Source: Bacteroides sp. AN502(2024)
Lineage (GTDB): Bacteria; Bacteroidota; Bacteroidia; Bacteroidales; Bacteroidaceae
Direction of reading: 5' to 3'
Length of the DNA stretch: 64,000 bases
Assembly: GCF_041227145.1 (NCBI RefSeq)
Contig: NZ_JBGFSP010000003.1
Location: 3,686,583-3,750,582, forward strand
The translations under genes and the position numbers were made by a program. The notes under the pieces were generated by a model. The model was not told the DNA's origin. It made no database searches and saw nothing but the letters and a program-made list of their open reading frames with translations. Positions 40,220 through 61,953 of this stretch are shown piece by piece. The stretch's first letter is position 1. Every line of letters starts with the position of its first letter.

Positions 40220-41539
40220 TCCTAAATAAATTGGGGGGAACAAATAAAAAGGAAGTAGAACTAAGGTAAAATGACTACCTTAGTAGCAAGCTACCAACTC
40301 ATCTACTTCCTATGGCAAATATAACACTTTTCGCACAGGTAATATCACATCTCCCGAAAGAAAATATCAGGAAAATCATAAAATCTTCGGGGTCAGACAA
40401 GCATTGCAAGGGCTACAATACATGGAGTCAGTTTGTTAGCATGATTTTCAGCCAATTCTCAGGATGTGATTCAGTCAGAGATATCTCAAACGGGCTGAAA
40501 TCAGCCACCGGCAACCTCAATCATTTGGGAATCAACCGTGCACCATCCAAGTCAACGGTAGCATATCAGAACGCCAACCGAGACAGTTCGGTTTTTCGCG
40601 GCATATTCTACTCGTTGTTTCAGTATTTCGGACAGCAAGCCCTATGGCAACGAAGAAAGTTCCGTTTCAAGATGCCGATAAAACTGCTCGACTCCACATT
40701 GGTGTCATTGACTCTGTCAATATATGACTGGGCACATTACACTACCACCAAGGGGGCGGTCAAGATGCACACGCTATTGGACTATGACAGTCTTTTGCCG
40801 GAGTTCGTGAATATCACCGATGGCAAAACCACCGACAACAAAGCTGCTTTTGATATTGAGTTACATCCGTATAGTATTGTAGTAGCCGACCGAGGCTACT
40901 GTGACTACTCATTGCTGAATAATTGGGACAGCAGCAACGTGTTCTTTGTAGTGCGTCATAAAGACAATATCCGGTACAAAGCCATAGAGGAGTTGCCTTT
41001 GCCTGAAAAACACGCTCAGAATGTACTTATTGACGAAATAATCGAGTTCGAACTCTCGGCGGCCAAATCCAAATATCCCAAACGTTTACGTCGCATCGCA
41101 GTATGGAACGATGAACACGGTTTTGAAATTGAGTTACTCACAAACAACTTCACATTGGCAGCATCAAGCATAGCGGCTCTGTACAAGGCTCGGTGGAACA
41201 TAGAAATCTTCTTTCGCAACCTCAAGCAACTGCTACGCATCAAGAGCTTTATCGGCACATCCCGCAATGCCGTAGAGACCCAAATATGGACTGCTATGAC
41301 TACAATGCTGATTCTGACATGGCTAAAGCACATCGCAAGATACAAATGGGCATTGGCTAACCTTGTGGTCACGCTCCGGCTGAACACATTTACCAAAATC
41401 GACCTCCAAAAATGGCTTGATCAACCATTTACACCACCTCCCGAAACCATCGAAAACGATTAGGGGGGATTGATTTTGAACTCTCGAGGCTATACTTAAC
41501 AGTATAGTCAGTTAGCTCATGCTCAAAATTTATTTAGGA
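40220..41539 (+). mobile_element. IS4 family element
   Basis: A 1.32-kb element with inverted ends TCCTAAATAAATT (from 40220) and AATTTATTTAGGA (to 41539). CAATATTG is duplicated at 40212-40219 and 41540-41547. The exact end is ambiguous by a base because ACAATATTGT is itself palindromic. It carries one intact transposase gene. Confidence 0.88.
40312..41463 (+). CDS. IS4 family transposase (DUF4372 type)
   Basis: A 383-residue transposase. The N-terminal DUF4372 region (SKHCKGYNTWSQFVSMIFSQ, written from residue 29 as DKHCKGYNTW) is followed by the IS4 DDE core: Asp in IKLLDSTLVSL, Asp in IVVADRGYCDY, and the YREK-type Glu region ALYKARWNIEIFFRNLKQLL. It is full length and likely functional. 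Confidence 0.92.
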   Translation: MANITLFAQVISHLPKENIRKIIKSSGSDKHCKGYNTWSQFVSMIFSQFSGCDSVRDISNGLKSATGNLNHLGINRAPSKSTVAYQNANRDSSVFRGIFYSLFQYFGQQALWQRRKFRFKMPIKLLDSTLVSLTLSIYDWAHYTTTKGAVKMHTLLDYDSLLPEFVNITDGKTTDNKAAFDIELHPYSIVVADRGYCDYSLLNNWDSSNVFFVVRHKDNIRYKAIEELPLPEKHAQNVLIDEIIEFELSAAKSKYPKRLRRIAVWNDEHGFEIELLTNNFTLAASSIAALYKARWNIEIFFRNLKQLLRIKSFIGTSRNAVETQIWTAMTTMLILTWLKHIARYKWALANLVVTLRLNTFTKIDLQKWLDQPFTPPPETIEND

Positions 41540-41615: not shown

Positions 41616-42158
41616 ATGAAACCGGTATTTATTAAGGTGCTTCGTGTACTGATGCTTTTTATAGTTATTGTTTCGTGTGCCATCGGTTATGCTGTTTATG
41701 AGGATACGTTGGTCAGTTGGTGGATACCTGTCGGGGTGGCTTTGGTGATTGCTATTCTTACATTTCCTTTTTATAAAAAGTGGACATGGTTGACGGCAAG
41801 AAGTAATAAATCTCTCAATCTGCTTTGTCATCTGGTTTGTGTGGGAGCTTTCAGCTATGCATTGTTTTTGGTGGGAAACTATTGTCTGGCGGATCCTGCT
41901 TCCACGCAGGACGAAAAAGTTGTTGTACAGAAGAAACTTCAGAAGACGTATAAGAAGACACGGCGGGTAGGTAAGTGGCGTTATGTGTCGGATGGTGTGC
42001 ATAAGGAATATTATTTACAGGTGGCTTTTGAGAATGGAACCGTGGAAACGTTACACGTATCACTTTCTACCTATAATAAGACTCGGCAAGGCAAAACAAA
42101 GATACTGACTTTGCAGAAAGGATTCTTCGGGCTTCCGGTGATAACGAAAGGACTTTAA
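41616..42158 (+). CDS. Hypothetical membrane protein (180 aa)
   Basis: Three predicted transmembrane helices in the N-terminal 95 residues (FIKVLRVLMLFIVIVSCAIG; WWIPVGVALVIAILTF; HLVCVGAFSYALFLVG), then a basic soluble domain of about 80 residues with RVGKWRYVSDGVHKEYYLQV. No family is recognised. A TATATTTG box near 41588 and a short gap suggest its own promoter. Confidence 0.7.
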   Translation: MKPVFIKVLRVLMLFIVIVSCAIGYAVYEDTLVSWWIPVGVALVIAILTFPFYKKWTWLTARSNKSLNLLCHLVCVGAFSYALFLVGNYCLADPASTQDEKVVVQKKLQKTYKKTRRVGKWRYVSDGVHKEYYLQVAFENGTVETLHVSLSTYNKTRQGKTKILTLQKGFFGLPVITKGL

Positions 42159-42449: not shown

Positions 42450-42689
42450 TTGAAACTATTAGTTTCCCTGCTTGAAACTACAGTTTCCCCGCCTTGAAAC
42501 AAAGTGTTTTGCGCCTTGAAACAAAGTGTTCACCGTGTTGAAACAAAGTGTTCACCGTGTTGAAACAAAGTGTTCAGCGCTTTGAAACAAAGTGTTCCAC
42601 CATATTGAAACAAAGTGTTCAGCGCTTTGAAAGTGTTCCACCATATTGAAACAAAGTGTTCCACCATATTGAAACAGAGTGGTTTGCTG
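42450..42689 (+). repeat. 22-bp dyad repeat array (11 units)
   Basis: About eleven units with 22-23 bp period. The first two are TTGAAACTATTAGTTTCCC and TTGAAACTACAGTTTCCCC; the others share TTGAAACAAAGTGTT with variable tails (TTGCGCC, CACCGTG, CAGCGCT, CCACCATA). One unit has lost CAAA. Core palindromes are kept while bases change (AAACT..AGTTT, AAACA..TGTTT). Same family as 27616-27738 and 5940-6003. Confidence 0.9.
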
Positions 42690-42782
42690 AAGTAACAACA
42701 AACACAAAATAGCATACGAGTTTACTTGTGGGATTGAAAGAGTAGTTTATCATGTTGTCAGACCATCATGAGCTAAAACAGA

Positions 42783-43068: not shown

Positions 43069-43546
43069 CCAATTACCCGGCTCGCATTGGACCGGATAAG
43101 GGGCAGTATGGCTATATTTTTATCTTAAATGAGAACCGTGATTGAACACTAAAATTTCTCTATTATTCTTTGGAGGAAATAAAAATAAACACTACTTTTG
43201 CCGCGATAAAATGAGTATTCACCCTTTAAAAACAGATGGAAAGGGTATTAATTATGTTGGAGTTATAATATTATCAAAATTAGGACTAAGTTGTCTTGTC
43301 GGGATGATGAGGCTTTGCAATTTATTGTTTTTACATTGAACCTATGGTTCTTATATTGACCGCAAATCTACTAACAAGCGGTAATGGTTGATTAGTCCTG
43401 CAATCCTTTTTATATTTTAAATTAATCACTTCAATGCGATGGTGGGTATTTCATATCCATATCCAAAAGCATTGGTATCACGTGTATTGCATTATCGTCT
43501 GCCGATGAGGTCGATAGGGAATGCTGTATGCGAACGAAAAAAGAGT

Positions 43547-44944
43547 ATGGGAATACGATTAAAAGATTTAAGCAAACTGGGATACCGGGATAATGTTGCC
43601 CGTAGTCTGGTAGTGGACATTGTGAGCAAACATTGCAAACACGACACTAAAGAACAGATTGAAATGACATTGAGCGATATACTCGAGCATCCCGAATCTT
43701 ACAAAAATAACGAAATTTGGAATAAGCTGGCCGAACGCCTTTCGCCTACTATAATAGCGAAAGAGTTGATAGCTTATGATTTATTGGACGAGCCGTTGAT
43801 GTATAAAACCTATGGAGGTAAATTTATCGAAACGCTTGCTAAACAACAGATGAACTTGGCTATGCGCTTACCCGTAACGGTAGCCGGAGCATTGATGCCT
43901 GACGCTCATGCCGGATACGGGTTACCTATCGGTGGAGTGCTTGCTACGGATAATGCGGTGATTCCGTATGCAGTAGGGGTTGATATCGGCTGTCGAATGA
44001 GTATGACGGTATTTGATGCTAGCGCTGACTTCCTGAAACGATATATCTGTCAGATGAAAGAAGCCTTGAAGGATTTTACTCATTTCGGTATGGATGGCGG
44101 ATTGGGTTTTGAACAGGAACATGAGGTGTTGGATAGGGAAGAATTCCGTTTGACTCCTTTGTTGAGGGATTTGCATGGAAAGGCAGTACGTCAACTGGGG
44201 AGTTCCGGTGGTGGTAACCATTTTGTAGAGTTCGGAGAGATCGCTCTGCAAGAAAATAATGTGTTGAATCTTCCGGAAGGAAATTATCTGGCATTGTTAT
44301 CACATTCCGGTTCACGAGGTTTGGGAGCTGCCATTGCCAAACATTACAGTCTGTTGGCATGTGAGGTGTGCAGGCTTCCACGTGAAGCGCAGCATTTTGC
44401 TTGGTTGGATTTAAACACTGAAGCAGGGCAGGAGTATTGGATGAGTATGAATTTGGCAGGCGATTATGCCCGTGCCTGTCATGAACGGATTCATTTGAAT
44501 TTGGCGAAAGCATTAGGGTTGAAGCCGCTCGCTAATGTCAACAATCATCATAACTTTGCTTGGAGAGAGGAAATAACATCGGGACGTATGGCAATCGTCC
44601 ATCGTAAAGGGGCTACTCCGGCGCAAAAGGGACAAGCGGGATTTATTCCCGGAAGTATGGCCACCCCGGGTTATTTGGTTTGTGGCAAAGGGGCGGAAGA
44701 AGCGTTGAATTCGGCTTCTCATGGAGCCGGTAGGGCGATGTCCCGTCAGAAAGCAAAAGATAGTTTTACGCAATCGGCTTTGAGGAAGCAGCTGTCGCAG
44801 GCGGGAGTGACTTTGATTGGCGGGAGCGTGGAAGAAATGCCACTGGCATATAAGTACATTGACAGAGTGATGTATACTCAGGAGACACTGGTAGAGGTGC
44901 AGGGTAAATTTATGCCTCGCATCGTTCGAATGAATAAGGAGTGA
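43547..44944 (+). CDS. rtcB: RtcB family RNA ligase (RtcB2-type, paired with prfH)
   Basis: A 465-residue RtcB starting at ATG 43547 (MGIRLKDLSKLGY); 36 in-frame codons upstream read like intergenic sequence. RtcB joins RNA 2',3'-cyclic phosphate or 3'-phosphate to 5'-OH using GTP and Mn2+. Visible ligands are DAHAGYGLPIGG, VGVDIGCRM (Cys), GSSGGGNHFVEFGE, LLSHSGSRGLG and NVNNHHNFAWRE; the guanylated His is in ASHGAGRAMSR near residue 405. The prfH gene begins one base after its stop. RtcB-PrfH pairs are known to heal and rescue ribosomes cut in the 16S decoding site by colicin-like nucleases. Confidence 0.95.
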   Translation: MGIRLKDLSKLGYRDNVARSLVVDIVSKHCKHDTKEQIEMTLSDILEHPESYKNNEIWNKLAERLSPTIIAKELIAYDLLDEPLMYKTYGGKFIETLAKQQMNLAMRLPVTVAGALMPDAHAGYGLPIGGVLATDNAVIPYAVGVDIGCRMSMTVFDASADFLKRYICQMKEALKDFTHFGMDGGLGFEQEHEVLDREEFRLTPLLRDLHGKAVRQLGSSGGGNHFVEFGEIALQENNVLNLPEGNYLALLSHSGSRGLGAAIAKHYSLLACEVCRLPREAQHFAWLDLNTEAGQEYWMSMNLAGDYARACHERIHLNLAKALGLKPLANVNNHHNFAWREEITSGRMAIVHRKGATPAQKGQAGFIPGSMATPGYLVCGKGAEEALNSASHGAGRAMSRQKAKDSFTQSALRKQLSQAGVTLIGGSVEEMPLAYKYIDRVMYTQETLVEVQGKFMPRIVRMNKE

Positions 44945-44945
44945 T

Positions 44946-45569
44946 ATGATGAAAGAAAAAGTATATTTACAGATCACTTCCGGTAGGGGACCTGCCGAGT
45001 GTTGCCGGGTAGTGGCATTGGTGTTCGAAAGAATAGTGAGACAAGCGCAAGCGAGAGGATTGAAGGTGGAAATGATAGAGCGGAAAGTAGGTCCGGTGAA
45101 CCGGACATTGCTCTCAGTTGTCATTTCCCTCCAAGGAGTGGCTTGTGGTGAAGTAGTGGATGAATGGGAAGGAACTGTGCAATGGATAGCTCAAAGTCCG
45201 TATCGCATTTATCACAAACGGAAAAACTGGTTTGTCAGTGTTCATTCATTTGTCTTGTCCGAGAATCAGGAGGTTACGGAACGAGATTTTCGTTACGAAA
45301 CCTTGCGTGCCTCGGGACCTGGCGGACAACACGTCAACAAGACAGAGTCGGCAGTCCGTGCGGTGCATATTCCTACGGGAATGAGTGTGGTAGCTTCCGA
45401 CCAACGCTCGCAATGGCAGAATAAGAAACTGGCAACGGAACGTTTGTTGGTGAAACTCTCGTCCTGGACGATGGAGCAGGCAATGATTCAGGCACAGGAG
45501 AACTGGGACAATCACAATCATCTGAAACGGGGAAATCCGGTGAAGGTGATTCAGGAGTCACTCATTTAA
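44946..45569 (+). CDS. prfH: Peptide chain release factor homologue PrfH
   Basis: A 207-residue class I release factor-like protein lacking the N-terminal and codon-recognition domains of RF1/RF2. It keeps the catalytic GGQ (residues 126-128, ASGPGGQHVNKTESAVRAVH). It is thought to hydrolyse peptidyl-tRNA on ribosomes with damaged decoding centres before RtcB repairs the rRNA. The start (two consecutive ATG at 44946 and 44949) lies directly after rtcB, so translation is coupled. Confidence 0.93.
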   Translation: MMKEKVYLQITSGRGPAECCRVVALVFERIVRQAQARGLKVEMIERKVGPVNRTLLSVVISLQGVACGEVVDEWEGTVQWIAQSPYRIYHKRKNWFVSVHSFVLSENQEVTERDFRYETLRASGPGGQHVNKTESAVRAVHIPTGMSVVASDQRSQWQNKKLATERLLVKLSSWTMEQAMIQAQENWDNHNHLKRGNPVKVIQESLI

Positions 45570-45609
45570 CTATGTGGGAAGAATTTAGTATTTAATTAAA
45601 AAGAAGAAA

Positions 45610-46317
45610 ATGATGTCAGAGAAATATGGTCGTACTTATCACTATCCATTCTCTCCCGGAACGACTAGTGACGACCGGATTAACCATACGTATTGGGAGG
45701 ACATCCAACGGATTCGAACATTGGTGCATACCGAGAAGCTGGATGGAGAGAATAATTGTTTAAGTCAGTGGGGTGTCTTTGCCCGTTCGCATGTTGCTCC
45801 CACTACTTCCCCCTGGACGAGGCAATTGCGTGAGCGTTGGGAATTGATAAAGAATGATTTGGGTGATATAGAAATCTTTGGAGAGAATCTATATGCTGTT
45901 CATTCCATAGAATATCAGCGATTAGAAACGCATTTTTATGTCTTTGCAGTCCGTTGTATGGATCAGTGGCTGTCATGGGAAGAAGTAAAGTTTTATGCAG
46001 CTTTATTTGACTTTCCTACTGTTCCGGAGTTGAAGATAGAGCCTGTTTCCGGTTTGACACCGGAACTTTTAAAACAGGAAATCATCCGTATGTCACAAGA
46101 ACCGGCTATCTTCGGCTCTTGTGATCCGTGGATGAAAGAGCCTTGTAGTCGTGAAGGAGTAGTCAGCCGCAATATCGCGGAATATCCGGTAAGCGAATTT
46201 GCACATAATGTGTTTAAGTATGTGCGAAAAGGACATGTTAGAACAGACGAGCATTGGACACGTAACTGGAAGCGCGCTCCGCTTGTTTGGGAGTTTAATA
46301 ATGAAAAGGAGAAATAA
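45610..46317 (+). CDS. Rnl2-like ATP-dependent RNA ligase
   Basis: A 235-residue nucleotidyltransferase of the RNA_ligase (Rnl2/Rnl5-like) family. Motif I is TEKLDGENN with adenylated Lys43; motif Ia/III regions are FARSHV and IEIFGENLYAVHSI; motif IV is SREGVVSRN; motif V is VFKYVRKGH. It should seal 3'-OH/5'-phosphate ends. The family usually has about 240-330 residues, so this is a minimal version without a large C-terminal domain. The HD/PNK gene begins 2 bp after its stop, giving the end-processing partner it needs. A second ATG at 45613 is possible. Confidence 0.88.
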   Translation: MMSEKYGRTYHYPFSPGTTSDDRINHTYWEDIQRIRTLVHTEKLDGENNCLSQWGVFARSHVAPTTSPWTRQLRERWELIKNDLGDIEIFGENLYAVHSIEYQRLETHFYVFAVRCMDQWLSWEEVKFYAALFDFPTVPELKIEPVSGLTPELLKQEIIRMSQEPAIFGSCDPWMKEPCSREGVVSRNIAEYPVSEFAHNVFKYVRKGHVRTDEHWTRNWKRAPLVWEFNNEKEK

Positions 46318-46319
46318 AG

Positions 46320-47429
46320 ATGAATTGGAAATTGATAGAAGATAAATCGTGGTGTTCACTCGAACAACAGTTCGGGTGGGTACGCGAAATGAATACTGTT
46401 CCGCAGGATATTCGCTATCATGCGGAGGGCAGTGTAGCCGAACATACCCGTATGGTATTGAAGGCATTGCAGCAGTCTTCTGCTTATCATTCTCTTTCTA
46501 CTTTGGAGAAGGAAATCATTTGGACATCTGCCTTGTTGCATGATGTTGAAAAACGTTCAACTTCCGTGAATGAAGGAAAGGGGCGGGTATCTGCTAAAGG
46601 ACACGCCAGAAAAGGAGAGTACACTGCCCGTACTATTTTATACCGGGATTGCCTTGTTCCATTCCATATCCGGGAACAGATTGTATCTTTAGTTCGGTAT
46701 CATGGATTGCCTGTTTGGTTGATGGAGAGACCTGACCCTGTAAAGAAACTATGTGAAGCTTCTTTACGGGTAGATACTTCATTGCTGAAGATGTTGGCCG
46801 ACGCTGATATCAGAGGACGTATTTGTGAAGATCAGAACGAACTGCTGGAAGCATTGGAGCTGTTTGAGATTTTCTGCCGTGAACAGGATTGTTGGAAGAA
46901 ACCGAGAGATTTTGCCACTGATTATGCACGTTTTCATTACTTCCATACTGAAGGCAGTTATATTGATTATATCCCTCACGAGCAGTTTAAATGTGAAGTG
47001 ACAATGTTGTCGGGACTTCCGGGAATGGGGAAAGATTATTATATTCAATCAGCTGGCATAGATGTTCCGGTGGTGAGTTTGGACATCATTCGTCGAAAAC
47101 ACAAATTGAGTCCCACGGATAAGTTTGCGAATGGATGGGTGGTGCAAACTGCGAAAGAGGAAGCCAGAACGTATCTTCGCAAAGGACAGGACTTTGTTTG
47201 GAATGCTACTAACATAACTCGTCTGATGCGTGCCCAACTGATTGATTTGTTTGTTGATTATGGTGCAAAAGTAAAGATAGTCTATTTGGAACAACCATAC
47301 CACATTTGGCGTCAGCAAAATAAAAGTAGGGAATATGCACTTTCTGAATCTGTATTGGATAAGATGTTGGATAAACTGGAGGTTCCTCAACTGACGGAAG
47401 CCCATGAAGTGGTATATCATGTGGTATAA
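46320..47429 (+). CDS. HD-phosphohydrolase / polynucleotide-kinase fusion
   Basis: A 369-residue two-domain protein. The N-terminal HD domain (about 25-190) has RYHAEGSVAEHTRMV and SALLHDVEK, the metal-binding His and HD pair. The C-terminal P-loop kinase domain (about 225-369) has LSGLPGMGKDYY (Walker A), VVSLDIIRRKHKLSPTD, an NATNITRLMRAQL segment and a lid with IWRQQNKSRE, as in T4-type polynucleotide kinases. The kinase should phosphorylate 5'-OH ends; the HD domain probably removes 3'-terminal or cyclic phosphates. Together they prepare ends for the Rnl2-like ligase encoded directly upstream. The pairing is a prediction made in comparative work on RNA-repair systems. Confidence 0.85.
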   Translation: MNWKLIEDKSWCSLEQQFGWVREMNTVPQDIRYHAEGSVAEHTRMVLKALQQSSAYHSLSTLEKEIIWTSALLHDVEKRSTSVNEGKGRVSAKGHARKGEYTARTILYRDCLVPFHIREQIVSLVRYHGLPVWLMERPDPVKKLCEASLRVDTSLLKMLADADIRGRICEDQNELLEALELFEIFCREQDCWKKPRDFATDYARFHYFHTEGSYIDYIPHEQFKCEVTMLSGLPGMGKDYYIQSAGIDVPVVSLDIIRRKHKLSPTDKFANGWVVQTAKEEARTYLRKGQDFVWNATNITRLMRAQLIDLFVDYGAKVKIVYLEQPYHIWRQQNKSREYALSESVLDKMLDKLEVPQLTEAHEVVYHVV

Positions 47430-47636
47430 AAGTAACGTGAGACGCAGGATGTACCTTAAAGTATTGTTATCTCTTTTCTGATATAATATCTGAATTATAT
47501 GTGTGGTATACAGGTAAAAAGGCTATTAAAAGTGGTATAAAGAATTTTAATAAAGGTGATGCGAGATATGGGATTTATTGGCTAATTTTACACCGATTTT
47601 GAAACAATATGAAAACTAACAATGCTGAGAAATAGA

Positions 47637-47750
47637 ATGAACATATTATCAAAGGTCACAATTTGGGGTAATAAACGCCCTGAGTTTGTGTCGGATGTTC
47701 ATGTCTTCGACATTGAACCTCGTTTTGTAAATACTTTCCAACGAACATAA
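47637..47750 (+). CDS. Very small frame or relic
   Basis: A 37-codon frame from ATG reads SKVTIWGNKRPEFVSDVHVF DIEPRF in part, with a protein-like composition but no known family. It may be a fragment. The rest of 47430-47944 is AT-rich with no other gene. It is followed by a terminator. Confidence 0.3.
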   Translation: MNILSKVTIWGNKRPEFVSDVHVFDIEPRFVNTFQRT

Positions 47751-47790
47751 TAAGGTACATTTTACTGTACTTTGATTTAGAATAGAGCAG

Positions 47791-47835
47791 AAATAGTTGG
47801 GGAGTCCTTACCAAACTTTCCAACTATTTTGTTTT
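47791..47835 (+). terminator. Rho-independent terminator
   Basis: AAATAGTTGG (47791-47800) pairs with CCAACTATTT (47820-47829), followed by TGTTTT. It separates the HD/PNK gene and the small relic from the phosphoesterase genes. Confidence 0.75.
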
Positions 47836-47944
47836 ATACCCATTTGTGGTAGTTGTCTTTGTGATGCTCCTCTGTCGTTTCCGTCTGATGGGTACTTGAT
47901 AACTTGATTATTAACGTGCAGTGACGCACATAAATTGAGAAGAA

Positions 47945-48523
47945 ATGAATTACAAATTTGATGGTAGCAAGGTGTTCTTTACATCTGATACACACTTTTA
48001 TCACGGGAATATCATTCGTTTCTGTAACAGACCGTTTAAGGATGTGGAAATGATGAATGAAACTATTATCTCCAATTGGAATAATACGGTTGGGCAGAAT
48101 AATATTGTTTTTCACTTGGGTGACTTTTGTCTTGGAGGTTCCGCTGAATGGACTAAAATACTTGACAGACTGAACGGCAAGATATATCTGATTATGGGCA
48201 ACCACGATTTGAAGAATATGCGTCAGGGCTATGTCGATAGATTTGAACATGTAGCAATGCAAATGCACATAGAAGTGAACAAGCAGAAAATATATTTGAA
48301 TCATTATCCGTTTCTGTGTTTTGATGGCGGATACAAAGATGTGTGGCAATTGTTTGGTCATGTGCATACAAGAAAGAATAATACCGGAGTTGATGCCTTT
48401 CGGCTTCAGTACCTTTATCCGACACAGTATGATGTCGGGGTAGATAACAACAACTTCACACCTGTATCATTTGAACAGGTTAAGAGAACTATAAATAAGC
48501 AAATAGAAGATGGAGGAAAGTAA
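47945..48523 (+). CDS. Calcineurin-like metallophosphoesterase 1
   Basis: A 192-residue protein with all metallophosphoesterase motifs: TSDTHFYHGNII (D-x-H), HLGDFCLGG (GD), MGNHDLKN (GNHD), LNHYPFLCF and LFGHVHTRKN (GHxH). The family hydrolyses phosphomonoesters or cyclic phosphodiesters with two metals. It lies downstream of the RNA-repair genes, in the same direction after a terminator. A role in removing RNA end phosphates is possible but not shown. Confidence 0.85.
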   Translation: MNYKFDGSKVFFTSDTHFYHGNIIRFCNRPFKDVEMMNETIISNWNNTVGQNNIVFHLGDFCLGGSAEWTKILDRLNGKIYLIMGNHDLKNMRQGYVDRFEHVAMQMHIEVNKQKIYLNHYPFLCFDGGYKDVWQLFGHVHTRKNNTGVDAFRLQYLYPTQYDVGVDNNNFTPVSFEQVKRTINKQIEDGGK

Positions 48524-48524
48524 A

Positions 48525-49292
48525 ATGAAGATACAATATATGAGCGACCTGCATTTGGAGTTTAGTGATAACAGTAGGTGGTTGCAACATAATGAATTGC
48601 CTGTGATGGGAGACATACTGGTACTTGCAGGTGATATATTTTATTTAAAGAATAAGATTGAGCCTTTGACGAATTTTTGGAAATGGGCATCAGCCAATTA
48701 TCGTCAGGTACTTATTGTTCCCGGAAACCATGAATATTACAATTATTGTGATGTGATGGATAGGGGATTACAGTGGAAATGGATGTTCAAGGAAAATGTC
48801 GGGTATTATCAGAATCAAGTGATACGGATAGATGACACAGATTTTATCATGAGTACTTTGTGGTCTCAAATTTCTCTTGTTGATGAATATTTTGTGTGGA
48901 AAGGCATGAATGATTTTCGACAGATAATGTATCACGGGAAACTGCTTCAGACAGAAGAATTCAACCAGATGCATACTTTCTGTTTGGATTTCATCAAGCA
49001 AAGTCTGGCAGAAAGTACCGCAAGACACATTGTGGTTGTGACACATCATCTTCCGACATTGGAGGTGGTAGCCAATCATCATAAGGGATCTGTGTTGAAT
49101 AGTGCATTTGCCACCGATTTGAGCAGACTTATATCCGATAACGATATTGATGCATGGATTTATGGTCATTCACATACCAATATTGATGTTGAAATAAATG
49201 GTACAAAGGTGGTTTGTAATCAAATGGGATATGTCTTTCAAAATGAACATACAACCAATGGCTTTGACCCAAGCAAACGTATAGTTTTGTGA
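48525..49292 (+). CDS. Calcineurin-like metallophosphoesterase 2
   Basis: A 255-residue protein starting at ATG 48525 (MKIQYMSDLHLEF), preceded by GGAGGAAAG as a strong ribosome binding site; the ATG at 48510 lies inside the previous gene and is rejected. Motifs are MSDLHLEFS, LAGDIFYL, PGNHEYYNY, VVTHHLP and IYGHSHTNID. It follows the first phosphoesterase by one base, so they form a coupled pair. The two are only distantly alike and probably have different substrates. Confidence 0.87.
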   Translation: MKIQYMSDLHLEFSDNSRWLQHNELPVMGDILVLAGDIFYLKNKIEPLTNFWKWASANYRQVLIVPGNHEYYNYCDVMDRGLQWKWMFKENVGYYQNQVIRIDDTDFIMSTLWSQISLVDEYFVWKGMNDFRQIMYHGKLLQTEEFNQMHTFCLDFIKQSLAESTARHIVVVTHHLPTLEVVANHHKGSVLNSAFATDLSRLISDNDIDAWIYGHSHTNIDVEINGTKVVCNQMGYVFQNEHTTNGFDPSKRIVL

Positions 49293-49410: not shown

Positions 49411-50528
49411 TCATCTTGTAGTATTATTAGAATTATAGACGGTCAAGCCTTTAACTGTCAGAAGGTATTTCTGGCGGGGATGGCGAGGCTTGTCAGGGTG
49501 GAGCATAGAAACAAATCCCTCTTTTATGGCTGGATTAAGTGAATATTCCATAAAATTTTCACGATCCTTTAATCCTACGGCAGCCATCATTTCTTTGACG
49601 GATAATTTGTTGTTTGCAATAGCTGTTATTAAGCGACAGATATTCTCGTTATCTATCTGCAATAGATTATATGAATTTGTCTGGGTGCTTGTCGGGGTGG
49701 AGACCACTATGTTTTCAGGAGTATTGACGATCAAAAAACGATTTCTTAATTCATTACCTCTTCCATCAATAGATTACGAAAGAATCGTTCCAAATACATA
49801 GAATCCCTTTTTATCCCTTTTTGGATGTTTTGGTAATTGGCTCTTACTAAAGCATTACGGAAATACCAAGAATGTTTAGCGAAAAGGTCATTTTCAACAT
49901 TGAATCCCATTGAACGTAAATATTGAATGATAAACACTGCTGTAGTTCGGGTATTACCTTCCCCAAACGGATGAATCTGCCACAACCCGGATACAAATTG
50001 GGTGATATGATTGACTATTTGATAAATGTCCAATCCGGTATAATCAAACGCCTTTTCTTGTTCGAAGTCATATTCTATGGCTCTGCGGATGTCTGGAGCG
50101 GAGACATAGAATACGGTATCACCACGAAGCACCCATTCCTTTTTGGTAATATTGTAATCTCTAATTTGTCCGGCAAACTTGAATACACCATTGAATATTC
50201 TTCGATGTATGGCGGTTAGTCCAGCTACGGTAAAAGCAAATGAACGCTCATTCAATAGCTTGGTAATATTGGCTGATACCTTGTCCGCTTCCTCTGTTTT
50301 GTTATCCTTTTCTGTACGAACATCTTTTGATTCATAGTAACTATTGATAAGTTGTTGTACTTCATCAATCGTTATATCCCCTTCAATATGCTTACGAGCT
50401 GTTTCAATGAGATATTCAGAGGGTTTTAAGCCATCTACCGCCTGAAGTCCTATTGCTGTTTGCCAGGCATAGCCTTTTTCACGCTTTTGTGGCTCACCTT
50501 GTTGGATGTATTCGTTGAAGTTAATCAT
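49411..50528 (-). pseudogene. Fic protein with C-terminal winged helix, frameshifted
   Basis: The core from ATG 50528 (MINFNEYIQQ) contains the Fic motif IHPFGEGNTRTTAVF (His186 to Arg194), with GVFKFAGQIRDYNI as the flap region. Fic enzymes AMPylate or otherwise modify target proteins. The frame ends at FFRNLLMEEVMN (49746), but the next frame carries the natural continuation NELRNRFLIV and a winged-helix domain (LITAIANNKLSVKEMMAAVG) to 49411. One missing G in GAGGTAATG (about 49765) restores a 370-residue protein. It starts 10 bp after the Argonaute gene with AGGA as ribosome binding site. I see no clear inhibitory [ST]xxxE[GN] motif. Confidence 0.8.
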
Positions 50529-50538
50529 TCCTAAATTT

Positions 50539-52354
50539 TTATATGAAATAACGATAATCATATGTGATGCCATTGTAATCTCTCAATAGATTTCCTATTT
50601 GAGCAAGAGTGTTAGAAGTATCTATTGTTGCTGGCAATTTTGTATATAAATTAAATGAGTTCCAATTCATTTTAGTGAATCCTATAATTTCTTTGGCAAT
50701 AGTTGCCAAGTCACCATGACCATAATATTTAGTTATCTTTAGTGGTGATGGTATACAGCGGCCTCCTTGATAATACCTTCTGTTTTCTTTTATAGATGGA
50801 ACTACTCCATGAGTCCATAATAAGGCATTTCTTCCTGATAATTTAATACAAGTACCTCTATCTATAGGATACCAATCTGATGTTAATTGTCTGTTGCTAA
50901 TTCTTTGAGCAATAAATTTTATATTGTATTCTTGTGTAATTGTTATCAAATCTATTTTAGTGATTCCTGCTTGTTTTAATGCATTTGTTATCCCTTCGAT
51001 TTCTTCCTCTCTAAATGGAGTACGTTTATGAATTACCACTCTTTGAGGAAGTTTATCCATTGCACATTGGAATAGATTAAGAATATCCATTCCAAACTTA
51101 TATGCTTCTTCAAAATTTAAATACGGATTTTTCTTTTTATCAAATTGAAGATGGTCAACTTTTGATAGTTTATATCTTAATCCTTGTCCTTGTGCATTAT
51201 ATATGTGGCTACATCCAAGAACAACCTCTGTCTTTCCGTTAGGACGTTTTTTTATACTGTAACCAATCCCCGCATAAGCGGTATTTGTGTCTAAGTCTGC
51301 TAATGTCCAAGGAGTTCTTAGAGTTTTACGAATAAAGCCAATGACAACCACCATGCTATCTCACATTCCATTTTGTCGTATAGAGTGTTCTCTTCTATAA
51401 TTTGAGTTGTGAAATTATGTTGGGCAGCAAATGCTTTAATGTAATTGTGTAAATCAAAAAATTCTCCGTTATGATAAAACTGCCTATAATTACTCCAAGA
51501 GTTTGGTATAAATATGGTTATTACAATTCCCGGAAAATGTTTTGCAAGGCTTTTAGAACTCATGCAAATATATCTTACTAGCTCCACAGCATTTATAGGG
51601 TTATCAGTTGTAGATATCCACCTTTCAGAATTTATATCTGGAATATCCAATCTACAATTATAAATGCTGTTAAAAGCGATGTAATCATGGATGTAATCAG
51701 AAGATTTTGATGTGAATATTGTAGTATTTAACTTTTTAATAAAGGTGTTGAATTTTTTAGCAAAAGAAACGGGACATACAATACCAAGACGTACATCTTG
51801 AGGGAAAATATCATAGTGATTTGCGTCATATGGCTTGTGATTTGATAATCCTCTCATTGGATTGTCATCATAGAAGGGCCTATTAATAATGGAGTTTACA
51901 AATTCAAGTTTAGGCTCATCAATTTGTATCCCATGATATATAGACTGATTTGTATTGTATGTTTGAGGTGTATCGATTCTAATATGATTTTGTCCATTAT
52001 AATGTATTTCAGCGAAACCACGATTAGGGGATAACTGAAATTTAAATCCGCTATTTGAGTTTACAGGAATATCGAATGATATTCTGTTATTTTCAAATAA
52101 AATATTGCACCACATTTGAAGTTTTTCTTCATATTCCTGATTTCTCATTTTATCCAAATATCTGCGGCTATATTCTTGCTTTTTTTCTTTTTCAATAACT
52201 TTGTTTGATTCAAGGTATATTGATGGTGTTATTGAAAATAGAGCATACTTTTGTTGTTGTGGAATAAACGATAATCCACATTCAATCGCTTCGTGGACAG
52301 ATATATCTTGTTCGCTAAACAAAATTTTGTCTCTCCATAATAAGTTTCGTTTGC
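50539..52354 (-). pseudogene. APAZ-MID-PIWI Argonaute, truncated and frameshifted
   Basis: From high to low coordinates: a partial APAZ domain (ISVHEAIECGLSFIPQQQKY, RNQEYEEKLQMWCNILFE), the MID domain opening IDEPKLEFVNS, PMRGLSNHKPYD and FPQDVRLGIV, then after a frameshift the PIWI domain (TLADLDTNTAYAGIGYS; RVVIHKRTPFREEEIEGI; GFTKMNWNSFNLYTKLPATI). The HK-RTPF segment stands where active Argonautes have Asp, so it is nuclease-dead as in short pAgos, which signal through a partner effector. A missing A in the run at 51324-51327 causes the frameshift. The 5' end is lost at about 52355, where the Mu-like prophage begins; the effector is not in the window. Confidence 0.82.
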
Positions 52355-52623: not shown

Positions 52624-53376
52624 TTATGTAACCAGCTTATCAAGCAGGCGAACAATGTTTGCCTTTATCTTGTGCCTGTCTCTTTGCCACTCTATTTGTT
52701 CCATCCCTTTGTCATATTCGGGATAAGGCTTTTCTTTCATCTTAAACTGAAAATGCTTGCACAAAGGATAAATGTAACGGTAGGTTTTCACCACGAACAC
52801 ATCCAGGTCACCAAGCAAGAAGGCTACATTTGAACGCACGTAGCCGGATGGTGATGTCGTATTTGTGAGTATTTGGTTATGGATAAACTCGCCCGTTCGC
52901 CTATTGCGCAGAAAACGCGTGTAATGAAAGCCGTAATATTTGAAGTTGGCCGCCTTGTAAATTGTTCCGCAGCCTAAACGACCATCGGCGAAACTTTGTA
53001 TAGCCACGATATTCTCATCCATTTTGCGGATCAACTTGATGCTGGCGGCAATTAGCACGGTTTCCGCATTCTTCCCGAGGCAGTCGCCAATCCACAAACG
53101 GTTTAATTCGCATATCCACGCTTTCGGACTCGGGTGATGGAATAATCTTACTTTGGGATTCTTCATGTAACCGTAAACCGCAACACCGAGGCATTTGTCC
53201 GGTTCATCGGCGCGGAAGATACTGAAGTTAAACACTCCAAAGCCGCCAAAGTTCCATTTATGGGAATAATGGTGTTCAAGCACCATTTGGCGGGCAAGTT
53301 CCTTTGTCACGGGTTTGATAAGCAGGTCGCCGAGCGATGAGGTTTGTTTCAGGACAAACAGATTTTCTTTAATCAT
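52624..53376 (-). CDS. mom: Mom-like DNA adenine modification protein
   Basis: A 250-residue GNAT-fold protein related to phage Mu Mom, which converts adenine in phage DNA to a methylcarbamoyl-type derivative and protects it from restriction. Recognisable segments are LEHHYSHKWNFGGFGVFNF, LGVAVYGYMKNPKV, ICELNRLWIGDCLGKNAET and IQSFADGRLGCGTIYKAANF. As in Mu it is the last gene before the right end. Its ATG overlaps the stop of the preceding small frame by ATGA, like com-mom coupling in Mu. Confidence 0.82.
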   Translation of the reverse strand: MIKENLFVLKQTSSLGDLLIKPVTKELARQMVLEHHYSHKWNFGGFGVFNFSIFRADEPDKCLGVAVYGYMKNPKVRLFHHPSPKAWICELNRLWIGDCLGKNAETVLIAASIKLIRKMDENIVAIQSFADGRLGCGTIYKAANFKYYGFHYTRFLRNRRTGEFIHNQILTNTTSPSGYVRSNVAFLLGDLDVFVVKTYRYIYPLCKHFQFKMKEKPYPEYDKGMEQIEWQRDRHKIKANIVRLLDKLVT

Positions 53377-53697
53377 TCAGCATATTGATAGCGTTTTAAT
53401 GTTTCATGAATATTTCCCTCACGATCCTTTTGCCGGGTGGCGCACGATGAGTGGTTCCTGCGGGTTGTCGGGTGGAGCCGTGATAGCGACGAACGATCGC
53501 AAGAGATACGGTGACTGTTCCGGCGCATGGCATCGGGCCACACTCCGCACGTTGAACGAGCGGATGATACCGTTTTTTCTTTCTTCATCCCCCGTCGCCA
53601 TGTGGACATGGAGCGCAAAACCGCGCAGCATGGCGGAATCATCACGGACTGTCCGCGGTGATGCGCCAATTGAGAATGTACGGATGATCGGTTTCAT
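53373..53697 (-). pseudogene. Small phage protein upstream of mom, frameshifted
   Basis: Starts at ATG 53697 (MKPIIRTFSIGASPR), five bases after the fibre gene stop, and runs to IVRHPAKGS (stop 53419). In another frame protein-like sequence continues as KDREGNIHETLKRYQYAE and stops in ATGA overlapping the mom start. A missing A in GCAAAAGG would join them into about 107 residues. No family recognised; it does not look like the Mu Com zinc finger (one Cys only). Confidence 0.5.
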
Positions 53698-53700
53698 TGC

Positions 53701-55563
53701 TTACTGTTTACGGGCTATTATTTTAAATTGGCAATAACGGTCGTTCATCACACTCTTGCACAGTTTTTCGGCGTATCCGCCATCGCTTTGAGGCTGATAG
53801 GAGCGGTTGTTACCCGAGGAGACGGGGATGCCGTCATCATCATACTGTACCACGCCGCCGGACTTGCAGACAAAGTAGTCGCCGAAGAGTTGTGCGGGTA
53901 TCCACGGCTGTGCGGGCACCCGTGTGTCGTCGAACATGATGGCGATGCGGTATTCGGGATCATCGGCGGGCGGTATGAATGTGTCGGTATCGTTGGCCGC
54001 CACGAAACTCTCGTCGGGCACAACGGTCCGTCCGCGGTATCGGATGGGGCTCTCACCCGTGTTGAGATAGACACCACCGCTTTGCAGGGAGTCTGCCGCC
54101 TGCAGCGTGGAGAATATGACGGGGGTCGAGCGCAGGTAGCACACGTTTTCGATGTTGGGGTCTTCGAGTGTGTGAAGTGTACCCGTATCCGTGCCGTTAA
54201 GCCCGGATACGAACGTGGTACCCTCCTCGTCAACCGCCAGCACGTTTCCCGTGACATAAACGGCGTTGCGGTATGCCACGTTTCCATCTACTACGTACCG
54301 GCCTTGCGGCAGGAGGTCTCCGGGGGCGAATGTGCGGTCGGTCACGGGGCGGTCGTTGAGTACGATGCCGTGCGAACCGAACAGGGAGGTGAACGATGCG
54401 AGTATACCGGTAACGGATGCCCGTGCGGTGTCGAGTCTGATGATTTTACTGAGCACTTCGCCCACCGTGTCGCTGCTTGTCTCATCCAGACAGATGGCTC
54501 CGCCTACAATGGTGAGTATGCCGGCCGCACTCTGCTCGTCCCATGTGCCGGCTATACCTATACTGTTATCCATGATGGGTATGGAGAGTGCGGGAGGCAA
54601 GGCACCCAGATAGGAATCGGTAATGCCCGGCAGGAATCCGGCGGGATTGGCGGCCGGGCTGTCGGCTCGAAGTGTCAGATCACCTGCTCCGGGATTGTTA
54701 AAAAGTTCTTCCGCCGTTTGCGCTGTGAAGATGCAGCGGGTGAACACGGGCATGAGTTCCTCTCTCACACCCCGTCCGCGGCATTGCCCGAGCAGACTGT
54801 CACGTCGCGCTTCTCCCCCGGATGCTTCGGTAATGAGTTCCTCACCGTCGAGGAACCAGCGGCAATCGGCAGTGAACAGGCACTCCTCGAAACGCAACGG
54901 TTCGTCGGCGTAGAAATCGCACCGGGCAAGAATGCTTGTACGGATAATTTCGATGCCGTACGATTCCCGCCTACGGTGTCCGATGGGGACGTTATGGACA
55001 GTGAAGTGAGACACTTCTCCATTACCCGCATAGCATATTTTCCTATCTCCGCAGATCTTGGGGCTGTCTATCACCACATGGTGTATGCCTCTTTTCCCGC
55101 CGATGCACCCCATGTATAAGGGTGAGTTGCGTATGATAACGCTATGGTCGCCCACACCCCATGAGTGCTGCGTCCACCCGAAATATCCTCCCCAGGCACG
55201 TCCCACCCCGGCATATCCCCATGCGCCGTATCGTATCATGGCGGTGTAGGTGGCCGGCGCGCAATTCTCCACGATGATGTCATTCAGCGTGAAGCCATGA
55301 ATGAGATAGGTGTCTTGCCCGTCGAATGTGGCCGCTCCCATGTAGTCTCCTTGTATGCGGGTATCGTGGTCTCCATCGGACATGTCCTCGCAGAATCGTC
55401 CTCGGCAGATGATTTCTTTCGCCGCGGTTCCGTGTCCCCTATACGCCTTTCCCAGTGTCTGATAGGGATTATCCGGGGTTCCTGTGCCGATGAGGTCGTT
55501 TCCCGCGTATGAGTCCACATAGACACACCGGGCGTTTCGTGTCCGCCACAAATAAGGTCTCAT
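53701..55563 (-). CDS. Phage tail fibre/spike with right-handed beta-helix
   Basis: A 620-residue protein. The N-terminal third has repeated short strands typical of a right-handed beta-helix (YLIHGFTLNDIIVENCAP; HSVIIRNSPLYMG; GIHHVVIDSPKI; VSHFTVHNVPIGH) and starts with YVDSYAGNDLIGTGTPDNPY, the usual opening of pectate-lyase-like DUF1565 folds. It is probably a spike that binds or degrades surface polysaccharide. No catalytic residues can be assigned. Near-overlap with the next gene (55560) shows operon coupling. Confidence 0.7.
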   Translation of the reverse strand: MRPYLWRTRNARCVYVDSYAGNDLIGTGTPDNPYQTLGKAYRGHGTAAKEIICRGRFCEDMSDGDHDTRIQGDYMGAATFDGQDTYLIHGFTLNDIIVENCAPATYTAMIRYGAWGYAGVGRAWGGYFGWTQHSWGVGDHSVIIRNSPLYMGCIGGKRGIHHVVIDSPKICGDRKICYAGNGEVSHFTVHNVPIGHRRRESYGIEIIRTSILARCDFYADEPLRFEECLFTADCRWFLDGEELITEASGGEARRDSLLGQCRGRGVREELMPVFTRCIFTAQTAEELFNNPGAGDLTLRADSPAANPAGFLPGITDSYLGALPPALSIPIMDNSIGIAGTWDEQSAAGILTIVGGAICLDETSSDTVGEVLSKIIRLDTARASVTGILASFTSLFGSHGIVLNDRPVTDRTFAPGDLLPQGRYVVDGNVAYRNAVYVTGNVLAVDEEGTTFVSGLNGTDTGTLHTLEDPNIENVCYLRSTPVIFSTLQAADSLQSGGVYLNTGESPIRYRGRTVVPDESFVAANDTDTFIPPADDPEYRIAIMFDDTRVPAQPWIPAQLFGDYFVCKSGGVVQYDDDGIPVSSGNNRSYQPQSDGGYAEKLCKSVMNDRYCQFKIIARKQ

Positions 55564-55856
55564 TCCTCACCTCCTTTCACCGTTTCCACATTGATGACAT
55601 CCCCGCGTCGTCCCCATGTGGGTTGTTGCGGGTCGATATACTCGCGGCGGATGGTTACACGCCACGCCTTATTTTCAATCACCCACCTTATGGGGCGCCC
55701 GAACCGGTCGGTTTGAGGCATGACCTTTCCCGTTTCTTCGGTATTCATGGCCAGAAGAGGATAGATTTCTTCGTATATCCACCTCATGGCGGATTCGGTT
55801 TGCGAAGTGTGGGGGTCTGTCTGCCACGTCACTCCTTCTTTTATTTTGATTTCCAT
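55560..55856 (-). CDS. Small phage tail-associated protein
   Basis: A 98-residue protein (WIYEEIYPLLAMNTEETGKV; TDRFGRPIRWVIENKAWRV). No family recognised. Its stop overlaps the start of the spike gene by 4 bp and it follows the 324-residue structural gene by 18 bp. It may be a spike chaperone or adaptor. Confidence 0.55.
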   Translation of the reverse strand: MEIKIKEGVTWQTDPHTSQTESAMRWIYEEIYPLLAMNTEETGKVMPQTDRFGRPIRWVIENKAWRVTIRREYIDPQQPTWGRRGDVINVETVKGGEE

Positions 55857-55874
55857 TCGATATTGGTTTAGAGA

Positions 55875-56849
55875 TTATACATCAGAGGCACGCCGGTGAG
55901 GCCGGCTCATCACACATCTTATTCCGACGGCCGCCGCGGCTTCGTTGACGCGTTGGATTTCCCATGTGGCGAGTTGTCCCGGTTCAATCAGTATCGCCTG
56001 CGGGTTTTCGGGATCGACCTCCCGGCGTACCGTGTTCCCGGCGGTTATCCACAGGTGTGCCACGTTGAACAGACGCACCTCTTTCATCGTCACCGCATAC
56101 GCCTCCATGTTGACATCCTGAATGGCGACTCCCGTCTGCCCGAAGTCGAGCGTGTAGCTGCGGTCGGCAAGCGAGTCGCGCAGGTTCTCGAGGGTCTTTC
56201 TCAAGCCTTCCTCGGCATCGGTGGCACGTTTTGTCTCATCGCTTATTTCTTCGTGACAAGCGGTCGCGATGGTTTTCCGTAGTTCTTCCAGCATGCCGGT
56301 CAGCGTCTCCGCATCGGTCACCCCTTGGAGAAACGCTTCCATCTCCCGCCATCGGTTGATCGTACTGTCGGCCGTGTCCTTTGCTTCCAAAAAGGTCTTA
56401 ATTGTATTCGCCAAAGCCCATAACGTGCTGTAATTCGCGCCCAAAGCGGAAAACGTGCTTTCCAGAGAAGCGCAGGGATCCGTGGGGTGCAGACACCCTC
56501 GCAGGCTTTCCGCATCGGCGTTGGCCGTGTCGATCTCCGCCTGCTGTCGTATGTCCGTGGCTTGCAAGTCGTCCATGTCGTCCGAAACGCGCCTGAACTC
56601 TTTCTCGGCCACGGCTGTATGTTGGTCGAACTCCGTGCGCAGCATACTGTGTCTTTTTTCCAAAGCCACACCGGAGGAGTGGTCGTATTTCGCATTTAGC
56701 TGTTCAGGGAGATCCTCCACGTTGGCAAGGGGCAGTTTGTCTTCCGTCTTATGCAGAAAACTGTCTATCCAGTCCGCGAACTGTTCTTCAATCGGGTATT
56801 TTCCGCGTTTGAACCATTGTTTTAATGTTGAACGTAATCTGATAGCCAT
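55875..56849 (-). CDS. Coiled-coil phage tail structural protein
   Basis: A 324-residue protein. The N-terminus RLRSTLKQWFKRGKYPIEEQ and FADWIDSFLHKTED is a conserved opening of Bacteroides phage tail proteins. It is followed by long alpha-helical, charged stretches (residues 60-230, coiled coil likely) and a C-terminal beta-rich part (YTLDFGQTGVAIQD; ATWEIQRVNEAAAAVG). Probably a tail-fibre shaft or connector. Confidence 0.6.
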   Translation of the reverse strand: MAIRLRSTLKQWFKRGKYPIEEQFADWIDSFLHKTEDKLPLANVEDLPEQLNAKYDHSSGVALEKRHSMLRTEFDQHTAVAEKEFRRVSDDMDDLQATDIRQQAEIDTANADAESLRGCLHPTDPCASLESTFSALGANYSTLWALANTIKTFLEAKDTADSTINRWREMEAFLQGVTDAETLTGMLEELRKTIATACHEEISDETKRATDAEEGLRKTLENLRDSLADRSYTLDFGQTGVAIQDVNMEAYAVTMKEVRLFNVAHLWITAGNTVRREVDPENPQAILIEPGQLATWEIQRVNEAAAAVGIRCVMSRPHRRASDV

Positions 56850-56860
56850 TGTGATATTAT

Positions 56861-57844: not shown

Positions 57845-57855
57845 CATTATCTTTT

Positions 57856-59185: not shown

Positions 59186-59196
59186 ATCCCAATTAT

Positions 59197-61329: not shown

Positions 61330-61354
61330 CGTTTGAATGCCGTTTAATTACTGT

Positions 61355-61952: not shown

Positions 61953-61953
61953 A

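Follow-up and report, generated by a model that had tools for sequence, protein, structure and literature searches.

In a 64,000-nucleotide (nt) stretch of the Bacteroides sp. AN502(2024) genome (contig NZ_JBGFSP010000003.1, positions 3,686,583 to 3,750,582; hereafter the window), four tightly packed genes, rtcB, prfH, an RNA ligase and HD-Pnk, are preceded by a conserved leader RNA that carries a very short open reading frame (mini-ORF). Taken as a whole, the sequences make it probable that this is an operon for RNA repair and ribosome rescue, which covers two end chemistries and is headed by an attenuator-like leader. The genes had been noticed in an earlier sequence-only reading of the window, from which the leader and its mini-ORF were absent. 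The genome is Bacteroides-like and 4.8 Mb in size; judged by HD-Pnk, with the best 80 of 547 matches kept, B. acidifaciens and B. xylanisolvens XB1A are the named relatives closest to it.

All four genes lie on the + strand in the order given, with intergenic gaps of 1, 40 and 2 nt (Table 1); the packing described in the sequence-only reading is exact, and family matches back all four names. RtcB enzymes join a 3'-phosphate or 2',3'-cyclic phosphate end directly to a 5'-OH end, while PrfH proteins release the peptide from ribosomes with a cut decoding site. HD-Pnk enzymes turn cyclic phosphate and 5'-OH ends into 3'-OH and 5'-phosphate ends, which are then sealed by an ATP-dependent ligase. 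The catalytic motifs checked in the window proteins are all intact. RtcB keeps six metal and guanylate residues, the equivalents of D95, C98, H203, H234, H329 and H404 in the numbering that we presume for the family, and as its relatives begin at MGIRLKDL, which corresponds to 43547, a longer ORF from 43439 is an unlikely start. The ligase has the motif I with catalytic lysine expected of an Rnl2-type enzyme, K43, D45 and G46 being invariant among 36 aligned sequences; as the chain is only of nucleotidyltransferase size and gave no PDB sequence match up to E 0.1 as a single-sequence query, the Rnl2-like label of the sequence-only reading is tentative. In HD-Pnk, H74-D75, H95 and H128 are invariant and the P-loop GLPGMGKD is nearly so (20 sequences). 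PrfH has relatives of known structure (PDB 9mor and 7sa4), and a TIGR03072 prfH adjoining rtcB, which defines the RtcB-PrfH module, is what the window holds, at a distance of 1 nt. The window RtcB falls below both RtcB2 cut-offs (TIGR03073, 129.9 versus 271.8 bits; PRK09588, 159.1 versus 407). The sequence-only reading had appealed to RtcB-PrfH repair of colicin-type 16S cuts; protection from colicin E3 was shown for an RtcB2, which the window RtcB is not.

We regard it as very likely that the operon is a repair unit. Co-transcription of the four genes and the enzyme activities of their products are predicted from the same sequences, and ribotoxin-type nucleases are the toxins that would presumably be countered. 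RtcB would join a cyclic phosphate or 3'-phosphate end straight to a 5'-OH end, or HD-Pnk would heal the same ends to 3'-OH and 5'-phosphate for the small ligase to seal, giving two independent routes for closing ribotoxin-type breaks. PrfH would be the optional, ribosome-specific member, which frees the peptide from a ribosome cut in its decoding site and so leaves the subunit repairable.

The leader spans about 340 nt (about 43207-43546, with an assumed transcript start) between rtcB and a sequence that resembles what we take to be the Bacteroides promoter consensus; four leaders lack the full promoter pattern, one of which is cut by a contig end. The leader is conserved far beyond neutral sites: identity is 0.90-0.92 over the 36 pairs of the close clade and 0.71-0.87 in comparisons with distant clades (6 pairs for each), versus 0.69 and 0.33-0.43 at four-fold degenerate sites of rtcB in the same comparisons. 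Three helices, P1, P3 and P4, were derived from an alignment of 15 leaders, with the clade lacking P4 left out. Within this alignment 94.5% of cells pair and 10 of the 21 pairs have changed on both sides; two-sided changes occupy 28 cells versus 9.3 in shuffles, and the covariation score is 0.313 versus 0.171 for shuffled and at most 0.086 for slid alignments.

A covariance model of the leader, R1, gave 18 matches in 46 sources, all in loci of the window RtcB lineage; the loci of Serratia, Taibaiella and Mucilaginibacter that were scanned gave no match. Among the 149 Bacteroides genomes that served as genus sample, it found 27 matches in 26 genomes, 14 of these matches being rows from which the model was built. 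Twenty-five stand just upstream of an rtcB of the window lineage and account for all 25 genomes that hold this lineage, including one (G689) in which the leader is kept with RtcB alone; the other two are relics, one in a genome from which the operon is gone (G703), the other beside transposase-like genes as judged by eye (G711). No leader match occurs in the other 20 RtcB-bearing Bacteroides genomes, whose best match to the window RtcB is 175 bits at 39% identity, versus 797-1012 bits within the operon lineage. Furthermore, R1 matched 2 of 295 genomes of the order sample (the window's own and G876) and 1 of 247 of the class sample, again the window's own. In Rfam 15 the leader has no match at the gathering threshold; up to E 5 there are three chance-level hits, far below the gathering scores. 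The idea that the leader mimics rRNA or tRNA was dropped, as no complementarity is seemingly kept across clades (judged by eye, no search run). Upstream of the leader, at 42450-42700, a short imperfect repeat array of the type TTGAAACAAAGTGTT can be seen by eye, and letters similar to these repeats occur near an orphan leader in L182.

The mini-ORF was read in 29 leaders, with one contig counted once and one leader, cut by a contig end (L148), excluded. In all 29, AAAGGG is followed after 7-9 nt by ATG, and the ORF then comprises four sense codons in 22 leaders, five in six and six in one, mostly encoding Met-Leu-Glu-x. Codon 2 is TTG, CTG or TTA in 25 leaders and codon 3 is GAG or GAA in 24. 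On the RtcB tree, which here covers 27 loci with both elements, codon 2 changes six times and its amino acid once, codon 3 changes five times and its amino acid twice, and the length changes twice, by whole codons. In the genetic code, 3 of 18 single-base neighbours of TTG and GAG are silent; since 8 of the 11 inferred changes at the two codons are silent, the pattern is of the kind that translation leaves. Part of the conservation of the mini-ORF could stem from a 5-bp hairpin, ATTAT/ATAAT, with which it overlaps. Taken further, the mini-ORF would be an accident of that conserved hairpin, and the conservation of the leader purely structural. The two arms can pair across the mini-ORF in 15 of the 29 leaders, but they are broken in the other 14, and start, frame and stop are kept in every one. 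Together with the silent changes, and with lengths of four, five and six codons that are all in frame, this makes such an accident improbable. In all likelihood, the leader is a real structured element with a translated mini-ORF.

Several observations weigh against the reading of a repair operon under an attenuator-like leader, the hairpin just described among them. Further pair types are not unusual (68 of 500 shuffles score as high), the fold of the window leader by itself is no more stable than that of shuffles (z -0.31), and one clade (L135, L138, L140, L142 and L143) has no P4 in its aligned leaders. Moreover, the leader is retained in operons that lost PrfH and is therefore not tied to that gene. 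There is no clear terminator (looked for by eye after P1, no terminator scan run) or sequestered start site in the leader, and the switch itself is for that reason not visible. Among the features of an attenuator, the mini-ORF and one structure are supported; an alternative structure was not among the folds found.

Still, the leader may well be an attenuator read by ribosomes, and the arrangement suggests in which direction it could regulate. Ribosomes would load at AAAGGG-N7-9-ATG, read four to six codons and arrive at the stop. P1 starts about 8-13 nt past this stop codon, and a ribosome held there would, by the size of its footprint, reach the 5' strand of P1. A healthy ribosome would terminate and depart, upon which P1-P3-P4 forms, while a ribosome unable to terminate, be it through a cut decoding centre or damaged tRNAs, would stay on the stop codon and cover the 5' strand of P1, leading to a changed fold and a higher expression of the repair genes. 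Failed termination would be the most fitting signal, being the very lesion that the operon is predicted to repair, and we tentatively propose, as a possibility with less than even chances, that the leader is a sensor of ribosome integrity which switches on the matching remedies. In our estimate it is rather unlikely that the two-chemistry unit is real while the leader is a riboswitch or a protein-bound autoregulatory RNA, bound for instance by RtcB, with a mini-ORF that only sets ribosome loading. The leader does contain several covarying helices, and its presence wherever this RtcB lineage occurs in the genus sample, even with RtcB alone, would fit binding by RtcB. That the mini-ORF is conserved in the manner of a coding sequence and varies in length by whole codons (29 of 29 leaders) nevertheless points to translation as a component of the mechanism, and no Rfam family matches the leader.

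As to the genes, a search of named genomes with an HD-Pnk profile, of which the best 80 of 547 relatives were kept, shows a ligase homologue upstream of HD-Pnk on the same strand in all 80 loci. The two are spaced by at most 34 nt or overlap in 77 of these, the others being 211, 753 and 787 nt apart. The ligase and HD-Pnk are thus a widespread pair, and 57 of the 80 loci have no RtcB match in the locus DNA. In the genus sample, where loci were assigned by coordinates and reading, HD-Pnk is found in 22, PrfH in 15 and RtcB in 45 genomes, and PrfH adjoins RtcB in all 15. Conservation of the cluster as a unit was a check that the sequence-only reading had proposed. RtcB lies directly upstream of the ligase-HD-Pnk pair in 19 of the 22 Bacteroides HD-Pnk loci, which excludes a cluster by chance, but the full four-gene order occurs in only seven, RtcB without PrfH being found in twelve. 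In two of the remaining three (G741 and G711), RtcB-PrfH is on a separate contig, and the third (G621) has a distant HD-Pnk with no RtcB or ligase match.

In wider samples the link is looser still. In the Bacteroidaceae sample of 221 genomes, HD-Pnk occurs in 4, PrfH in 10 and both in 1, a weak co-occurrence, and in the phylum sample the ligase-HD-Pnk pair follows PrfH in 1 of 28 loci (3.6 kb each), namely the window itself. Like the minority share of the four-gene set within the genus, this count weighs against the reading as one repair operon. Because the 19 of 22 in the genus stand against such figures in the family and the phylum, the combination of RtcB-PrfH with ligase-HD-Pnk is a Bacteroides habit that is sporadic elsewhere. 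Cultured strains are represented among the loci by B. acidifaciens DSM 15896 and by B. xylanisolvens XB1A, the latter with a leader. In the same genus, L150, L151 and L152 carry RtcB-PrfH of a second and distant type (80-84 bits between their RtcB and that of the window), with no ligase, HD-Pnk or leader match.

Loss of PrfH can be followed in the DNA itself. Between RtcB and ligase, three species carry scars of prfH while RtcB, ligase and HD-Pnk are kept: 25 codons near the start (L034/L128), 9 codons (L126), and 12 codons from close to the end together with a few bases of the start (L035/L132). In L129, L131 and L133 only the spacer behind prfH is matched, apart from 17 nt around the prfH start in L131, and L135, L138, L140, L143, L144 and L145 have no significant prfH match between the two genes. 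The losses were repeated, since on the RtcB tree L126 pairs with the PrfH-bearing L127 and L128 with the PrfH-bearing L130. Median ratios of nonsynonymous to synonymous substitution rates in RtcB are 0.042 and 0.069 in pairs with PrfH and 0.044 and 0.038 in pairs without; as recent losers share a history with PrfH and some groups hold 2-6 pairs, these low values are no more than supportive of a strong constraint on RtcB after PrfH loss. The reverse case is G677, with an intact RtcB-PrfH but a decayed ligase and HD-Pnk. Given these losses and the reverse case, RtcB is kept with either partner and the four genes are not obligatory.

The same succession, RtcB-PrfH before ligase-HD-Pnk, is also present in five Serratia loci, Taibaiella and Mucilaginibacter lacusdianchii, and in Dysgonomonas and Tannerella with extra genes in between. 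Of the five Serratia RtcB, the two that were scanned are RtcB2 equivalogs (584 bits versus a cut-off of 272), and five other Bacteroidota RtcB scanned are, like that of the window, not RtcB2. In one Serratia locus (L092), excluded from the RtcB tree, the RtcB ORF is shortened and lacks the D95 and C98 positions. At least 7 changes in the presence of RtcB have to be assumed on the HD-Pnk tree, 5 of which are forced by well-supported branches. In the RtcB tree, the genes of Taibaiella and Mucilaginibacter fall together with RtcB-PrfH pairs whose 3.6-kb loci contain no ligase-HD-Pnk. These trees do not distinguish gain from loss; even so, it is difficult to do without separate joinings that involved different types of RtcB.

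It could be argued that RtcB-PrfH and ligase-HD-Pnk are two independent cassettes which share a hot spot or promoter, as is common in defence islands, and have no joint function. The 57 named pairs without an RtcB match would agree with this, as would the 27 of 28 phylum loci (3.6 kb) with PrfH and no ligase, the two genomes that carry both halves on separate contigs, and the decay of ligase and HD-Pnk in G677. However, the spacing is tight and on the same strand across diverged Bacteroides, assemblies arose separately in Serratia, Mucilaginibacter, Taibaiella and Bacteroidales, and RtcB-ligase-HD-Pnk is retained after PrfH is lost, so that we consider mere cohabitation distinctly unlikely. 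The claim of two end chemistries in one cluster, made in the sequence-only reading, holds in that the cluster is operon-like, kept in Bacteroides and re-assembled elsewhere; PrfH is its dispensable member.

Larger versions of the locus exist as well. In L186 (G876:C1:16000-30000, order sample), the order is leader, RtcB, an exonuclease (RNase_T), PrfH, Tpt1, ligase and HD-Pnk, followed by a downstream train of NUDIX, radical SAM, NADAR, ADP-ribosylglycohydrolase and macro domains. L042 likewise has a larger operon, with Tpt1/KptA between PrfH and ligase and with NUDIX and NADAR downstream. Pfam matches of single representatives confirm Tpt1/KptA for Dysgonomonas-like loci and, for some Bacteroidota, genes of the TROVE/Ro60, WYL and M41-like kinds; all four are extensions of the theme that do not occur in the window. 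An RtcB and ligase-HD-Pnk neighbourhood without PrfH was seen in L065, L077, L084 and L103. L084 carries an M41-like protein and a TROVE/Ro60 gene by Pfam, with clustered relatives in some of L065, L077 and L103, and WYL-type genes cluster near L065, L077 and L084. In Xenorhabdus, the neighbours of the ligase-HD-Pnk pair are, by eye, core genes (dnaB-, alr- and aminotransferase-like).

The sequence-only reading had also drawn two downstream phosphoesterases into the island. Both genes exist, in adjacent positions and on the strand of the operon, but a gap of 515 nt separates the first from HD-Pnk, and neither has a relative in the 80 loci of HD-Pnk from named genomes (at most 10 kb on each side, E 1e-8) or in 29 Bacteroides loci (L126-L154, E 1e-5). 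The downstream DNA is not shared either: in eight close relatives, the 4 kb that follow HD-Pnk contain no blastn match to the first 1.5 kb behind that of the window. A six-gene repair unit is therefore very hard to maintain, and we treat the two genes as neighbours only. In the viral scan, the first phosphoesterase had no relative and the second one distant relative (L125, 32% identity); among the viral contigs read, MPE1-like genes were seen in L119, L120 and L125 and an MPE2-like gene in L125.

Mobility of the operon was also considered. Twelve viral contigs (L113-L124, ten of which exceed 50 kb) encode a distant HD-Pnk of 35-46% identity, with a related ligase nearby in eight, and none of the twelve has an RtcB or PrfH match; a viral origin of the operon was rejected on these two counts. 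Plasmids gave only relatives below 60% identity (40 records), and phage records three matches, two of them distant and one a 54-residue end fragment at 94%. As these matches are distant or fragmentary, the window operon does not appear to be plainly mobile. The fragment belongs to MT835908.1, a 15.6-kb phage record from human faeces that opens with the C-terminal 54 residues of an HD-Pnk (94% identity to the window protein), as if a provirus were sitting just behind such an operon. Further downstream in the window (50539-52322, - strand), a single prokaryotic argonaute profile is matched in its consecutive parts 449-774 and 773-1030 by two ORFs that overlap in different frames, and this looks like a split argonaute gene with the N-terminal part missing from both ORFs. 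A Fic protein (49746-50573; PADLOC PDC-S72, 425 bits) adjoins them. The region 52624-63505 (- strand) is prophage-like, with a Mom DNA-modification protein (52624-53376), a tail collar protein (56861-57877) and a minor tail protein (62432-63505).

Table 1. Features of the window in and around the repair operon (window coordinates)
Feature	Position	Strand	Evidence
DDE transposase with DUF4372, upstream of operon	40312..41463	+	Pfam
DUF2500-like gene, upstream of operon	41616..42158		Pfam
Bacteroides-type promoter-like TTTG ... TAcTTTTG	43169..43200	+	Full pattern in 11 of 15 leaders scanned; TA..TTTG invariant in 18 aligned
P0 hairpin CCCTTT/AAAGGG; 3' arm is the Shine-Dalgarno-like AAAGGG of the mini-ORF	43222..43245	+	Leader alignments
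Mini-ORF ATG TTG GAG TTA TAA (M-L-E-L-stop)	43254..43268	+	Such an ORF in 29 of 29 readable leaders
Structured core	43280..43401	+	Covariation; covariance model R1; conservation above four-fold sites
P1 helix	43282-43289/43392-43399	+	Covariation
P3 hairpin	43293-43300/43306-43313	+	Covariation
P4 hairpin	43359-43363/43378-43382	+	Covariation
Putative P5 helix CAATGC/GCATTG, 3' part of leader	43432..43474	+	Predicted by RNAalifold, 18 leaders
rtcB	43547..44944	+	Pfam RtcB, 260 bits
prfH	44946..45569	+	TIGR03072 equivalog, 318 bits versus cut-off 166.65; GGQ motif
Minimal ATP-dependent RNA ligase, 235 aa, motif I KLDGEN	45610..46317	+	Pfam RNA_ligase, 100 bits versus 27
HD-Pnk (HD phosphohydrolase and P-loop polynucleotide kinase)	46320..47429	+	HD 27.7 versus 22 bits; AAA_33 69 versus 27 bits
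First phosphoesterase	47945..48523	same as operon	Metallophos, 41 bits
Second phosphoesterase	48525..49292, or from 48510	same as operon	Metallophos, 59 bits

In cultured gut Bacteroides, this locus is a compact natural system in which to ask how damage to the translation machinery is sensed and why some bacteria keep two RNA-ligation chemistries. Throughout the genus sample, one apparently undescribed leader RNA is matched one-to-one to a single RtcB operon, and the species that have or lack PrfH amount to natural deletion strains. Should the leader indeed report failed termination, RNA repair would be under an attenuator that senses damage, which would represent a new class of regulatory RNA and a ready biosensor for drugs that target ribosomes and for ribotoxins.

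RtcB-PrfH and ligase-HD-Pnk are each already known, whereas the leader RNA looks undescribed; in the titles and abstract openings covered, which represent part of the matching literature, neither the four-gene set nor the leader was recognised as described. The HD-Pnk of Runella slithyformis reportedly has an N-terminal HD domain, a C-terminal P-loop kinase and an ATP-dependent ligase as neighbour. The window pair resembles it in domain order and in the ligase beside it, and differs in standing behind RtcB-PrfH. Very short translated ORFs that control what lies downstream are familiar from other translational attenuators and minigenes. In axe-txe, a two-codon minigene controls the downstream sequence (PMC8708949); the mini-ORF described here is longer, with four to six codons, mostly Met-Leu-Glu-x, stands before a folded core and heads RNA-repair genes. 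The RtcB2-PrfH module of E. coli ATCC25922 protects against colicin E3 and not against tRNA-targeting toxins (PMC9223846). Both there and in the window rtcB directly precedes prfH and PrfH belongs to TIGR03072, but the window RtcB is not RtcB2, a ligase and HD-Pnk follow, and a leader RNA lies ahead. Burroughs and Aravind (2019) have described how the RtcB-PrfH core gathers accessory repair genes and spreads sporadically (PMC6514570). Section 2.4 of their paper lists TPR, Pol-beta nucleotidyltransferase, zinc-ribbon and charged-helix proteins, and in that section, the full list being in the supplement, there is no ATP-dependent ligase, HD-Pnk or leader RNA. Within the genus, the main text of a Bacteroides transcriptome map is without rtcB or RNA ligase (PMC7366714). 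B. thetaiotaomicron BT0726-27, an RtcB family protein (not necessarily of the operon lineage) and a hypothetical protein, are listed as 2.7-3.6-fold up in iron depletion (P 8E-05 to 0.437; PMC10434189). Lastly, the RtcBA operon under RtcR is an example of a regulated RtcB repair operon (PMC7790460). By Pfam, neither of the two genes scanned upstream of the window operon resembles RtcR (no search of the whole genome for RtcA or RtcR was made), and, unlike in the RtcR type of control by a protein, the control of this operon appears to lie in its leader RNA.

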